Source of the DNA: Cyclobacteriaceae bacterium
GTDB taxonomy: Bacteria > Bacteroidota > Bacteroidia > Cytophagales > Cyclobacteriaceae
Reading direction: 5' to 3'
NCBI GenBank assembly: GCA_020436085.1
Contig: JAGQYM010000042.1
Location: 1 to 40,484 of the forward strand
DNA length: 40,484 nucleotides
This document shows, piece by piece, positions 1,166-35,807 of the stretch. The translations under genes were made by a program, and so were the position numbers. The first letter of the stretch is position 1, and each line of letters begins with the position of its first letter. The notes under the pieces were generated by a model. It was not told where the DNA came from, ran no database searches, and saw only the letters and a list, made by a program, of their open reading frames with translations.

Positions 1166-2506
1166 ATGTCGTCATCGATGGAGAGAAGATTAGGGCTTAC
1201 ACAGGCCACAGCAATCAACATGATTGATATGGTGGGTATAGGTCCTTTTATTACGATGCCGATGGTAATGGGGATGATGACGGGCACTAATTTTTTATTT
1301 GCCTGGATTGCCGGAGCAGCTCTTTCTTTTGTTGATGCGATGGTGTGGAGTGAACTTGGTGCAGCGTTTCCAAGGGCTGGTGGAAGTTATAATTTCTTAA
1401 AAGAAGCTTATGGTCGAAACAAAGAAGAAAAAATGATGAGTTTCCTGTTTGTGTGGCAAACGATGATTCAGGCGCCATTAGTAATCGCATCAGCAGCGAT
1501 CGGGTTTGCGTCTTACTTTACTTACCTCGTGCCGCTGGAGCCAATGATGGTGAAAGCGGTAAGTGGAGGAGTGGTAATTCTGATAGTTGTCATGCTCTAT
1601 AGAAAAATTGAAACTATCGGAAAAATTTCTGTGGCGCTTTGGTTCGGGGTGATTACCTCAATGTTTTGGATTATTGGCGGTGGGATCGCTGAAGGCAATT
1701 TCCTGACGCCACTGGAGACTATGACGGAAGGAGCAGGATTGAATTATGCATTTGCAAGTGCGCTCGGATTCGCGAGTGTGAAAAGTGTTTACAGTTATCT
1801 GGGATACTATAACGTGTGTCATTTAGGCAGTGAAATTATCGAACCGGCTAAAAACATTCCAAAGAGTATGTTCCTTTCCATAGCTGGAATTACCGTTTTG
1901 TATTTGGCGATGAACATCAGCGTGGTGAGTGTCATTCCCTGGAAGTACGCGAAGGAAAGCGAGTTCGTGGTTAGTCTTTATATGCAGGAGCTGGCGGGGC
2001 CAACAGCGGCCAAGGTGCTTACTGTGTTGATTTTGTTCATTGCGTTTGCCTCCGTTTTTTCCGCTACGCTTGGCTATAGCAGGATACCTTATGCAGCTGC
2101 CGCTGATGGTGCGTTTTTTAAAGTTTTCGCTACACTTCATCCCACAAAAAATTTCCCTCACGTCTCGTTGTTAGTTCTTGGCGCAGTCGCGTTTGTTTTC
2201 AGTTTGTTGTTCAGGCTTCATGATGTGATCAGCGCGATACTTGCGATGAGGATATTGATTCAATTTGTAGGTCAGGCAATAGGCCTGTTACTTTTGCGGA
2301 AGACCCGACCCGCGGAAGACTTTCCGTATAAAATGCCTTTCTTCCCGTGGCCCATTTACATCGCCATCGGTATGTGGATTTTTATTTTGTGGTCAACGGG
2401 TATTACTCTGGTTATTTCCGGACTTACAGTAATCGCCTTAGGATCGGTTGTATATTTGGCGAAGGCAAGAATAAGTCATGAATGGCCGTTTGCTAAAACC
2501 TTATAA
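1166..2506 (+). CDS. APC superfamily amino acid permease
   Basis: A 446-residue inner-membrane transporter with about 12 hydrophobic segments. The first carries the broken-helix motif GIGPFIT (near residues 24-30), the substrate and ion site in the LeuT-like APC fold. The segments SELGAAFPRAGGSYNFLKEAYG and GYYNVCHLGSEIIEPAKNIPKS are the usual TM2/loop and TM6/loop signatures of the amino acid-polyamine-organocation family. The substrate cannot be read from sequence. The ATG at 1166 is followed at once by the typical N-terminal LGLTQATAINM. It begins a probable three-gene run: the next gene starts 6 bases after the stop, and ArfB follows. Confidence 0.88.
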   Translation: MSSSMERRLGLTQATAINMIDMVGIGPFITMPMVMGMMTGTNFLFAWIAGAALSFVDAMVWSELGAAFPRAGGSYNFLKEAYGRNKEEKMMSFLFVWQTMIQAPLVIASAAIGFASYFTYLVPLEPMMVKAVSGGVVILIVVMLYRKIETIGKISVALWFGVITSMFWIIGGGIAEGNFLTPLETMTEGAGLNYAFASALGFASVKSVYSYLGYYNVCHLGSEIIEPAKNIPKSMFLSIAGITVLYLAMNISVVSVIPWKYAKESEFVVSLYMQELAGPTAAKVLTVLILFIAFASVFSATLGYSRIPYAAAADGAFFKVFATLHPTKNFPHVSLLVLGAVAFVFSLLFRLHDVISAILAMRILIQFVGQAIGLLLLRKTRPAEDFPYKMPFFPWPIYIAIGMWIFILWSTGITLVISGLTVIALGSVVYLAKARISHEWPFAKTL

Positions 2507-2512
2507 ATAGGT

Positions 2513-2725
2513 ATGGTGAAGTTTATAGAATTAACAATAAGTGATGATGATGAGGTGAGGAAACAGCTCGTTAACATAGATAATATCGGAAGGGTATTTC
2601 CAAGCCCGCAGAACGATCGACATAGTATGGTGGAATTGAATTATCACAGTATCAATGACGCGCCAGTTGTGCTTGAGGTGAACTTGCCTTATGAAACTTT
2701 GCGTTCCTATTTTCTGCCGTCATAG
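2513..2725 (+). CDS. Small hypothetical protein, 70 aa
   Basis: I do not recognise this protein. It is acidic and soluble, and begins VKFIELTISDDDE with a predicted beta-rich pattern, ending LPYETLRSYF. The short beta layout with a hydrophobic start is loosely like FlbD-type small proteins, but I would not assign it. It sits 6 bases after the permease stop and 5 bases before the ATG of arfB, so it is almost certainly co-transcribed with both. The tight packing between two real genes is the main evidence that it is coding. Confidence 0.65.
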   Translation: MVKFIELTISDDDEVRKQLVNIDNIGRVFPSPQNDRHSMVELNYHSINDAPVVLEVNLPYETLRSYFLPS

Positions 2726-2730
2726 TGGGT

Positions 2731-3138
2731 ATGCGTATTCCACAGTTTGATGATATAAAAGAAGAGATAGAGTTTTCGACTGCTCGCAGCAGTGGACCGG
2801 GAGGACAGAATGTCAACAAAGTCAATAGCAAGGTTGTATTGCGCTGGAATGTATTGCGCTCAAACCTGTTGGCGGAAGAAGTTAAATCAATTTTAACAGC
2901 TCAGCTAAAATCAAAACTTACATCAGTTGGAGACCTGGTTATTTCGGTGCAGGAGACTAGATCGCAACGTGAAAACAAGGAGCAGGCAATTGTCAAGTTG
3001 AATCACCTTCTGAAACGAAGCCTGACGCCAAGAAAGAAAAGAAAACCAACGAAGCCTACATTGGCATCGAAGGTTAAGCGACACAAGCAGAAAAAATTGA
3101 AATCAGAGAAGAAACAGTGGCGTCAAAAGCCAGAATGA
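2731..3138 (+). CDS. arfB: Alternative ribosome-rescue factor, peptidyl-tRNA hydrolase ArfB
   Basis: A 135-residue protein with the release-factor GGQ motif at residues 24-26 inside SSGPGGQNVNKVNSKV. It has no codon-recognition domain, and its C-terminal tail is very basic (repeated KKRKP, KRHKQKK, KSEKKQWRQK). This is the ArfB/YaeJ architecture: the tail enters the empty mRNA channel of a stalled ribosome and GGQ hydrolyses the peptidyl-tRNA. The length matches the family. A GTG at 2725 is also in frame, but the ATG at 2731 gives the normal start. The last gene of the permease run, it abuts the next minus-strand gene with no base between the two stop codons. Confidence 0.92.
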   Translation: MRIPQFDDIKEEIEFSTARSSGPGGQNVNKVNSKVVLRWNVLRSNLLAEEVKSILTAQLKSKLTSVGDLVISVQETRSQRENKEQAIVKLNHLLKRSLTPRKKRKPTKPTLASKVKRHKQKKLKSEKKQWRQKPE

Positions 3139-33793: not shown

Positions 33794-34201
33794 ATGGCAG
33801 GCTACTCTGGAACTCCGCTAGGTAAAAAGTTGGGACTCAAGTCCGGGTTTACCATAAAAGTAAAAAACGAACCTGAAGAATACTGGGATTGGATAGCTCC
33901 GCTGCCTGAGGACATGAAAGTAGCCACCCGATCAAAAAAAGAGAGCCTTGACTTTGCACACTTGTTTGTGAAAGCCAACAAGATCTTTGAAAAGGAATTT
34001 ATCAAGTTCAGGGACGAGCTGAAGAAAACGGGGATGCTTTGGATTTCGTGGCCAAAAAAGTCATCAGGTGTAGTCACCGACCTTAACGAAAATATTATCC
34101 GCGACTTTGGCTTAACCAATGGCATGGTTGACGTGAAAGTCTGTGCGGTGGATGAGACCTGGTCAGGTCTCAAATTTATGTTCAGAATAAAAGATCGCTA
34201 G
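33794..34201 (+). CDS. DUF3052-like protein
   Basis: A 135-residue soluble protein. The start AGYSGTPLGKKLGLKSGFTIKVKNEPEEYW is the typical N-terminus of DUF3052 family proteins, and DFAHLFVKANKIFEKEFIKFRDELKKTGMLWISWPKKSSG is the conserved helix and strand in the middle. No function is established. Its TAG stop overlaps the TAG stop of the convergent anti-sigma gene within the palindrome CTAG (34198-34201), so the two transcripts must overlap. Confidence 0.82.
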   Translation: MAGYSGTPLGKKLGLKSGFTIKVKNEPEEYWDWIAPLPEDMKVATRSKKESLDFAHLFVKANKIFEKEFIKFRDELKKTGMLWISWPKKSSGVVTDLNENIIRDFGLTNGMVDVKVCAVDETWSGLKFMFRIKDR

Positions 34202-34725
34202 AACTGCACCCGTGATCTTCGCTGGAAGAACGGCTTCAGGATAGTCCTATCCAGAAGCAGAAATGCCAGCCCGATATTCAAACCGATGATGCCATTCACC
34301 ACCCACTTGCCATTGAAAGGAATGGAAGGTAAGGATGGCGTGGTAACTCCCGTTGGCAGTTTCATATTTTCAAAAGAGAGTATACCGTTTAGTGAATTGT
34401 AGAGACCTGCATCTACTAGTGTCACGCCAATGCCCAAGGCTACCAGAATTCCCGCAAGCAACAGTAAACCATTACGAGGAGTGATGCCCTGTGTGGCCGG
34501 TATCTTGTGGAGGATGCTCATCACGCGCTGTGTGAAGTGAGATGACGGCTCCATCAGCTGACCCTTCTGCATGGAGCGCTCGATTGTTTTCAGAATTTCC
34601 AATCGGTTCCTCAGTTCTTCAGAGGTTTCAAGGCCTTTCTTCACCTTTTCGAGTTTCTCTCCGATAAGGTTCCCCTCAAGGTAATCCTGAAGCAGTTGGT
34701 CTATTTCTTGTGTTATCCGGTTCAT
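34198..34725 (-). CDS. Putative anti-sigma factor with two membrane segments
   Basis: A 175-residue protein: a cytoplasmic helical N-terminus (MNRITQEIDQLLQDYLEGNL..., about residues 1-80), TM1 (about 82-105), a short loop, and TM2 (about 140-163). The first domain has the size and position of an anti-sigma domain, but lacks the zinc motif HxxxCxxC, so sigma binding is inferred. It directly follows the ECF sigma gene, the usual place for a cognate anti-sigma factor. The ATG at 34725 is 12 bases after the sigma stop; a GTG at 34737 is also in frame and would abut that stop. The product would sit in the inner membrane. Confidence 0.7.
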   Translation of the reverse strand: MNRITQEIDQLLQDYLEGNLIGEKLEKVKKGLETSEELRNRLEILKTIERSMQKGQLMEPSSHFTQRVMSILHKIPATQGITPRNGLLLLAGILVALGIGVTLVDAGLYNSLNGILSFENMKLPTGVTTPSLPSIPFNGKWVVNGIIGLNIGLAFLLLDRTILKPFFQRRSRVQF

Positions 34726-34737
34726 GGTAACTTTCAC

Positions 34738-35295
34738 TTATAAAGTTAATGCCTCTTTCTGTAAAATGCTTGTCAATTCATCGGCCAGTCGCTGCCTGGC
34801 TCTGTGAATCCTCACTTTCGTGGTATTTATTTTTTGTCCCATCATGTCCGCGACCTCTTCCAGCGAGAATTCCTTCAGGTAGAAAAGCTGTAGCGAAAGC
34901 CTGTCGGCCTCGTTGAGCCGGTTCAATGCCTTGTCTATGTATACCTGTTTGTCAGTTTTCTCCATACTCTCATTGTCGTCCGCTGCCTGATGAGGTGTGT
35001 TTTCAATGGACTGAAATACGCGCCTGTTTTTTCGTTTATAGCTGATCGCAGTGTTGAAGACGATCCGATAAAGCCAGGTCGAAAACCTTGCTCCTCTCTT
35101 GAAGCCCCTCAGGTAGTGGAATGCTTTGATAAATGAGTCCTGGGCCACTTCCTCGGCATCTGACCTGTTGCCCACGATCTTGTAGGCGATGGTAAAGGCA
35201 TAGCTTTTATGCTGGTCCACGAGGCTAGCATAAAGATTGTCTTCACCGGCCAGTATGCGGTCGATTAACTCATTTTCTTCTTGTGCTGTGATCAC
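34738..35295 (-). CDS. ECF RNA polymerase sigma factor
   Basis: A 185-residue ECF sigma factor. Region 2 covers about residues 25-95 (YAFTIAYKIVGNRSDAEEVAQDSFIKAFHYLRGFK with ARFSTWLYRIVFNTAISYKRK), region 4 about 125-178 (LNEADRLSLQLFYLKEFSLEEVADMMG, then the helix-turn-helix KINTTKVRIHRARQRLADEL). The start is GTG at 35295; an in-frame stop lies upstream and no ATG is nearby. A motif matching an ECF promoter ends 5 bases before this GTG, so the mRNA may be leaderless. Anti-sigma-like protein follows in the same operon. The trigger is unknown. Confidence 0.93.
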   Translation of the reverse strand: MITAQEENELIDRILAGEDNLYASLVDQHKSYAFTIAYKIVGNRSDAEEVAQDSFIKAFHYLRGFKRGARFSTWLYRIVFNTAISYKRKNRRVFQSIENTPHQAADDNESMEKTDKQVYIDKALNRLNEADRLSLQLFYLKEFSLEEVADMMGQKINTTKVRIHRARQRLADELTSILQKEALTL

Positions 35296-35300
35296 GGGCC

Positions 35301-35329
35301 TTTGACGCGGAGTTTCTCAAGGAAGTTAC
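35301..35329 (-). promoter_or_regulatory. Candidate ECF promoter of the sigma/anti-sigma operon
   Basis: The minus strand reads GTAAC, an 18-base spacer, then GTCAAA (full form TGTAAC-N16-GCGTCAAA). The shape resembles GGAACTT-N16-GTC promoters of ECF sigma factors. The same motif with identical spacing is present on the other strand of this intergenic region. Transcription would start at about the GTG codon of the sigma gene. Confidence 0.6.
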
Positions 35330-35363
35330 ATAAATTACTACAGACATTTTTTTCGGAGGACGT

Positions 35364-35392
35364 GTAACCAGCTTTCAAAGGGGTGCGTCAAA
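35364..35392 (+). promoter_or_regulatory. Candidate ECF promoter of the divergent membrane-protein gene
   Basis: The plus strand reads GTAAC, an 18-base spacer, then GTCAAA (full form TGTAAC-N16-GCGTCAAA), matching the copy that faces the sigma gene. The predicted start leaves a leader of about 16 bases before the ATG at 35415. Confidence 0.6.
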
Positions 35393-35414
35393 AGGGCAAA
35401 ACAACATTTCAATT

Positions 35415-35756
35415 ATGGACGTAGCAGTTTTAGGCGTAATGATCCCAATCATCGGAACGATCGGGGCATTTATCACGATAGTATACCTTCGCAAATTCCA
35501 GAACATGGAGCGAATGGCGATTATAGAAAAAGGACTTGATCCATCACTCTTTAAAATAGAGCGATCTGCAGCCGGGGCGTTGAGGGCATCGCTGTTGCTG
35601 ATAGGTGCGGGTATCGGTTTGCTGATGGGCTACTGGCTGGACAATGCATTCTTCATGGACGAGGTGGCCTACTTTTCAATGCTGTTTCTATTCGGAGGTC
35701 TGGGGCTCGGGTTAGCCTACATGATCGAAGAGAAGAAAAGTAAAGAGAATCGATAA
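35415..35756 (+). CDS. Small membrane protein, DUF6249-like
   Basis: A 113-residue inner-membrane protein with three predicted helices (about residues 3-24, 54-73 and 84-104). Between the first two is a short cytoplasmic segment with the motif ERMAIIEKGLDPSLFK, which I associate with the DUF6249 group in Bacteroidota; these often stand beside ECF sigma genes. Function unknown. It is divergent from the sigma/anti-sigma operon and shares the presumed ECF promoter motif, which suggests it belongs to that regulon. It ends in its own terminator. Confidence 0.75.
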   Translation: MDVAVLGVMIPIIGTIGAFITIVYLRKFQNMERMAIIEKGLDPSLFKIERSAAGALRASLLLIGAGIGLLMGYWLDNAFFMDEVAYFSMLFLFGGLGLGLAYMIEEKKSKENR

Positions 35757-35780
35757 GAAGGTTATTAAAACAGAAGTCAA

Positions 35781-35807
35781 AGCCCTCCGTCATTGAGGGC
35801 TTTTTTT
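35781..35807 (+). terminator. Rho-independent terminator after the DUF6249-like gene
   Basis: A 7-bp stem (AGCCCTC / GAGGGCT) with a 7-base loop is followed by a run of seven T on the plus strand. The convergent transporter gene ends in the same T run, so the hairpin may serve both strands, but the minus-strand T tract is poor. Confidence 0.88.

Follow-up and report, generated by a model that had tools for sequence, protein, structure and literature searches.

It is established that ECF sigma factors usually autoregulate and that a comparison of upstream regions can reveal their promoters (PMC3817407). In the autoregulated operons described there a conserved promoter lets the sigma factor transcribe the operon that encodes it and its anti-sigma factor, and the same is predicted here for a locus within a 40,484-nt stretch of DNA from a Cyclobacteriaceae bacterium (contig JAGQYM010000042.1, hereafter the window). 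The locus differs from the operons of that account in having a second, often divergent target, a gene of the DUF6249 family, whose promoter comes close to the sigma-facing one in conservation, and in the fixed distance between promoter and start codon of the sigma gene. A sigma operon together with a divergent partner carrying the sigma factor's own promoter type is also known from the EcfG/NepR/PhyR locus of alphaproteobacteria, but the partner PhyR is described there as a partner-switching response regulator (PMC8103513), whereas the DUF6249 protein is a small membrane protein. The ECF21 Das/Dma pairs of Bacteroides likewise combine a Bacteroidota ECF sigma factor with a membrane anti-sigma factor encoded beside it, and neighbouring genes rise upon loss of the anti-sigma factor (PMC13088901). 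However, Dma proteins are described as ending in an outer-membrane beta-barrel, and the anti-sigma factor of the pair reported in PMC9308784 is also of the beta-barrel type; as the anti-sigma factor found here has only about 175–178 residues and an all-helix model with no such barrel, we rejected membership in the ECF21/Dma pairs. Starts with a CGT box at −10 have been mapped for SM6 of Flavobacterium psychrophilum, including an ECF/anti-sigma pair (PMC9723704); this set resembles the locus in its promoter box and differs in that it also takes in type IX secretion genes. The literature that we searched, which did not extend to the 2021 ECF reclassification, held no description of a sigma/anti-sigma/DUF6249 unit. 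Thus, the principle is known, ECF autoregulation being textbook knowledge, and what is new is the promoter code, the conserved DUF6249 target and a probably leaderless start.

The sigma factor gene (34738..35295, minus strand) starts with GTG and encodes 185 aa with the Pfam domains Sigma70_r2 (residues 24–91 of 184) and r4_2 (118–169), both above the cut-off. With only regions 2 and 4 and a size within about 180–200 aa the protein belongs to the ECF sigma factors (group 4), and its nearest solved relative is SigW (E 6.8e-20). The next gene of the operon (34198..34725, minus strand) was listed with a GTG start at 34737, the likely start being the ATG at 34725, as this methionine is invariant in the alignment, partly since the starts nearest to Met were chosen. 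Its product alone matched no Pfam or NCBIfam model above cut-off and no Pfam model at E ≤ 1e-3. The HxxxCxxC motif is the hallmark of ZAS anti-sigma factors; the protein has no cysteine at all and falls outside this zinc-binding class. A profile built from 25 sequences matched RsiW (PDB 5wuq) at positions 6–78 with an E value of 5.9e-6, and the structure model (mean pLDDT 79.5, pTM 0.38) shows four helices at the N-terminus and two long ones after them. A Foldseek search with this model also ranked RsiW first, with probability 1.00 but an E value of 0.22. Profile match and model together give the features of a Class I anti-sigma factor, namely a domain of about four helices, a gene adjoining that of the sigma factor and a membrane anchor; on this basis the third gene of the unit encodes an RsiW-like membrane anti-sigma factor. 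Bacillus SigW/RsiW is therefore the best solved-structure match for both proteins, the differences being the missing cysteine, the two long helices after the domain and the TGTAAC/CGTC promoter. The divergent gene (35415..35756, plus strand) encodes a small membrane protein of 113 aa that belongs to DUF6249 (PF19762, 67.4 bits against a cut-off of 33). It was modelled as three helices (mean pLDDT 90.3, pTM 0.60), and the search of this fold against the PDB gave no convincing match; a search for DUF6249 on plasmids gave none at all.

Between the sigma and the DUF6249 gene lies a gap of 119 bp (35296–35414), for which an earlier note on this DNA had described TGTAAC-N16-GCGTCAAA once per strand, each copy pointing towards its own gene. 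Positions and directions proved correct. The sigma-facing promoter covers 35301..35330 on the minus strand (−35 box TGTAAC at 35330–35325, N16, −10 box GCGTCAAA at 35308–35301), with 8 nt from CGTC to the GTG start, and the DUF6249-facing promoter covers 35363..35392 on the plus strand (TGTAAC at 35363–35368, N16, GCGTCAAA at 35385–35392), with 25 nt from CGTC to the ATG. The 18-base spacing between GTAAC and GTCAAA is the same on both strands, and the two matches to GTAAC-N18-GTCAAA, 35301–35329 (minus) and 35364–35392 (plus), are the sole ones in the window, as the note had also stated from inspection by eye; spacers varied from 14 to 20 added none. Shuffling the window gave 0.01 expected matches, and two copies occurred in 0 of 100 shuffles. 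The genome-wide scan proposed in the note turned out less clear, as two of its three matches lie at the locus and the reversed pattern used as control also gave three. The stricter pattern TGTAAC-N16/17-GCGTC occurs twice in the genome, both times in the sigma/DUF6249 gap, with a reversed control that also reached two. The genome-wide count of the motif alone is thus not above chance; what does exceed it is a facing pair within 92 bp in which each copy precedes a gene. Since the bare counts do not exceed those of the reversed patterns, the case rests on pairing and placement. The third exact match to GTAAC-N18-GTCAAA (G000:C146:13069–13097; L003, L217) is without the CG of the −10 box.

Changes of gene order among related genomes serve as a natural experiment on the two promoters. 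In a set of 58 genomes of the genus, our own included, the sigma factor was found in 46 (E ≤ 1e-30) and DUF6249 in 45 (E ≤ 0.001), presence being discordant only in G012, a genome that is 76% complete. Copies of the exact motif in these genomes number 145, of which 42 face sigma, 41 face DUF6249 and 62 are located elsewhere. At the divergent loci the sigma-facing motif is present in 38 of 38 cases and both motifs are present in 34 of 38, so that the comparison of this intergenic region in relatives suggested by the note found the boxes conserved. The close co-directional operons, in which DUF6249 precedes sigma, carry the motif only before DUF6249 (5/5), and the distant co-directional paralogues in G021 and G059 have neither motif (2/2). 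Two genomes (G072 and G078) have the genes unlinked on different contigs, and each gene has kept its own motif; in G004 the two contigs that carry the genes break off near them, and each holds just a degenerate copy of the motif. An ECF-type promoter conserved before the own gene or operon in relatives, as expected for autoregulation, is therefore found at the genus loci. Genomes with the sigma factor hold 2.89 motif matches on average (133 in 46) and those without it 1.0 (12 in 12), the corresponding values for the reversed pattern being 4.37 (201 in 46) and 3.58 (43 in 12). As the extra matches track the sigma factor while the density of exact matches outside the locus is similar in both groups (50 in 46 genomes carrying sigma, 12 in 12 lacking it), these sequence counts support the view that the two promoters form the core regulon of the motif.

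Farther out, we read 80 sigma relatives from the genome collection for the motif and for neighbouring genes, and DUF6249 is present in 67 of these loci at E ≤ 0.001, including Pedobacter, Chitinophagaceae, Marinifilum and Kordia. GTAAC-N14–19-CGTC lies within 250 nt before sigma in 50 of 79 wider loci and is absent from 29, at least 5 of which are co-directional; distant others among them show, by eye, a GTAAC box and then a different −10. Column conservation was calculated for 29 upstream regions which align from codon 2, over 60 nt upstream, anchored on the start codon only and without use of the motif. Columns −35 to −28 and −13 to −6 reach 0.62–1.43 bits, the spacer 0.06–0.60. Because the spacer columns carry so little information, we rejected shared ancestry of the whole gap as a simple cause of the conservation. 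Together with the tracking of gene order, the conservation supports the interpretation already put forward in the note, namely an ECF −35/−10 pair with one promoter per gene.

The motif conservation, the linkage, the gene-order dependence and the anti-sigma homology are results of the comparison; the sigma factor that reads the motif, the direction of regulation, the 5' ends and the trigger are inferred. It is very likely that the locus encodes an ECF sigma/anti-sigma pair under positive autoregulation, that DUF6249 is its conserved target and that both promoters are read by the local sigma factor. The two motifs would be the −35/−10 elements recognized by RNA polymerase with this sigma factor, which in the resting state would be held by the membrane anti-sigma factor and would be freed from it by a putative envelope signal. 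Freed sigma would then transcribe its own operon, whereby sigma is amplified and the anti-sigma factor restored, and it would also transcribe the divergent DUF6249 gene as an output or a feedback part of the unit. The predicted sigma mRNA would begin at, or a few bases from, the GUG start codon, and the predicted DUF6249 mRNA would have a leader of roughly 15–45 nt. If correct, this defines the promoter code, which reads TGTAAC-N16-GCGTC-A/C among close relatives, for a phylum whose ECF sigma factors are poorly charted; the core regulon is small and conserved, and the role proposed for the DUF6249 membrane protein can be tested.

Is the circuit confined to these genes? The strongest alternative, which we regard as possible though not as the probable case, keeps the same circuit but assigns it a wider envelope-defence regulon that also takes in a family of MacB-like permeases and, depending on the species, DUF2807 and DUF5694 genes. 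In its favour, 19 of the 62 exact matches outside the locus precede permeases, and all 19 are found among the matches (E ≤ 1e-140) to one permease of our own genome; the one submitted to a Pfam scan carries MacB_PCD and FtsX domains. Our own genome has 127 MacB_PCD matches, taken as roughly 60 genes, and the permease share of the non-locus matches suggests an enrichment far above what the number of permeases would lead one to expect, the reversed motif being a control of counts and not of position. With one mismatch allowed, our own genome has 8 matches (against 19 for the reversed pattern), 6 of them outside the locus. Two of these copies fit a wider regulon: one (C147:42281–42310, L293) lies 47 nt before the ATG of a permease of the same MacB-like family, the other (C187:4726–4755, L295) precedes the ATG of another MacB-like permease by only 10 nt, close enough to resemble a leaderless start. 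A motif model trained on the sigma loci gave scores of at least 8 for 4 of 70 permease upstream pieces from our own genome (L218, L225, L261, L275). Upstream of the best match to the permease family it reached this score in 21 of 35 sigma-carrying genomes, compared with 0.4% of 1500 random 203-bp pieces, but also in 4 of 9 genomes lacking sigma, which speaks against reading by the local sigma factor. This tally omits the 12 of 58 genomes that have no match at E ≤ 1e-140 and leaves out the second copies G000b, G059b and G064b; a wrong start served as anchor for G001, G017, G059 and G069, and these four are counted as misses, no start was found in G015, and the pieces from G020 and the second one from G029 were too short.

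Also against a wider regulon, besides the similar density of non-locus matches with and without sigma, stands the base after CGTC. Of the 19 permease promoters 18 have T at this position, compared with 0 of 93 motifs at the close sigma/DUF6249 loci, the latter being distinct strings within these loci that are not each assigned to one gene. This difference suggests that the CGTC-T promoters of the permeases belong to a sister ECF sigma factor of neighbouring specificity. Because the sigma-facing promoters of distant relatives also read CGTC-T (e.g. L087, L105, L106 and L108), reading of the permease promoters by the local sigma factor is nevertheless possible. The base after CGTC could thus serve as a natural test of how sister ECF promoters are told apart. 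For the claims made from the window alone this means that the core promoter pair stands, as it tracks its genes in relatives, whereas the idea of a self-contained three-gene module is supported only in part; in the same way, the sigma factor driving its own operon and the small membrane protein is backed by motif and gene order in relatives, but a promoter of this kind is not confined to them. The idea that our own genome has no sister promoters at other sites is contradicted by the one-mismatch copies before permeases and by the model scan of the permease upstream pieces, and we rejected it.

Several further sites were seen during these scans. The sister promoter TG(T/C)AAC-N16-GCGTC-T precedes the one MacB-like permease family in many genomes of the genus (L293 in our own and 19 loci among L146–L216), and it is also present in some genomes lacking sigma. 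The exact motif precedes DUF2807-type genes in some relatives (L177 by Pfam, L195 and L199 by likeness) and DUF5694-type genes in others (L210 by Pfam, L160 by likeness). From our own genome 6 DUF2807 genes (7 matches) were scanned and one showed an ECF-like site of another type, TGCAAC...GCATCT (L351, G000:C55), perhaps another ECF promoter class. At L218 (G000:C113) GTAAC...CGTC-TAA is located 84 nt before the PF12704 match 2446–3069 of another permease-like gene. A weak ECF-like site at L275 (G000:C169:48870–49570) precedes the gene of a membrane protein of 116 aa in which a MIEKG stretch resembles DUF6249, and a permease gene comes next.

Transcription from ECF promoters begins several bases downstream of the −10 box. 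The sigma mRNA would therefore begin at or near the start codon, and we conclude that it is probably leaderless, as the note had proposed for the GTG start. The distance from CGTC to codon 1 is 8 nt in 33 of 42 genus promoters that face sigma, and in 43 of the 50 wider loci with the motif the first in-frame start is found 8–13 nt after CGTC, the distance from CGTC to the DUF6249 match in the genus being 23–53 nt. This first in-frame start is GTG in 24, ATG in 25 and TTG in 1 of the 50 loci, and loci with another codon in place of GTG often have ATG as the next one. The proposal is supported by this fixed geometry of promoter and start and by the next in-frame start of our own sigma gene, which is codon 26, inside sigma region 2. 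That the mRNA is not leaderless, being made from another upstream promoter or translated from a start further inside, is unlikely on these grounds and also since many of the sigma relatives align from codon 2 onwards. It is favoured by the three Marinifilum loci, which by distance are not leaderless as their first in-frame start lies 88–117 nt after CGTC, by the mapped mRNAs of a flavobacterium, 5.5% of which are leaderless (PMC9723704), and by the inefficiency of non-AUG leaderless starts in E. coli as cited in PMC3616915. For the latter two reasons a conserved leaderless GUG would be notable, and the fixed distance from promoter to start allows a direct test of leaderless non-AUG initiation in Bacteroidota.

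A more far-reaching version of the preferred reading, which we consider tentative and rather doubtful, is that in this ECF family the start codon is fused to its own promoter across much of Bacteroidota, giving a leaderless GUG or AUG sigma mRNA, and that the membrane partner DUF6249 is made from the matched leadered promoter. A disturbance of normal initiation would then affect the leaderless sigma and the leadered DUF6249 mRNA in different ways, and DUF6249 would be no ordinary target but would serve specifically for feedback on the membrane anti-sigma factor.

As our own genome gives 35 first-look sigma candidates, another ECF sigma factor could read the motif pair. The promoters would then be real but read mainly by that factor, and the local sigma would be a cascade target without autoregulation. 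The sister promoters in genomes without the local sigma fit this idea and sigma–sigma cascades are mentioned in PMC3817407, but the motif pair tracks the local sigma factor, with the higher number of matches per genome given above, and the motifs stay with both genes through rearrangements, which makes a cascade quite improbable. Chance, or a repressor operator instead of a promoter pair, has a negligible probability: GTAAC and GTCAAA are short words whose genome-wide counts equal the reversed controls, and it is not these counts but the window shuffles, together with the placement before the first gene of an operon, that led us to reject a chance origin, with conservation, ECF-like spacing and orientation to each gene pointing in the same direction.

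Two minor observations concern the neighbourhood of the unit. At 31 of 32 loci examined farther out the gene after sigma encodes a protein of similar build with at least two predicted hydrophobic helices (simple hydropathy window), the one without being L080. This gene is shorter (127–141 aa) at L087, L088, L092, L097, L098, L100, L105 and L108, where most of the N-terminal helical part is missing from the protein but a PSxxF-xxx-(V/I)M stretch is retained along with two hydrophobic helices; as a guess from the sequences, this stretch may be the sigma-binding core. Between the DUF6249 gene and the convergent symporter gene of the window, a GC-rich hairpin with a T run (35780–35806) can be read from the sequence as a likely terminator.
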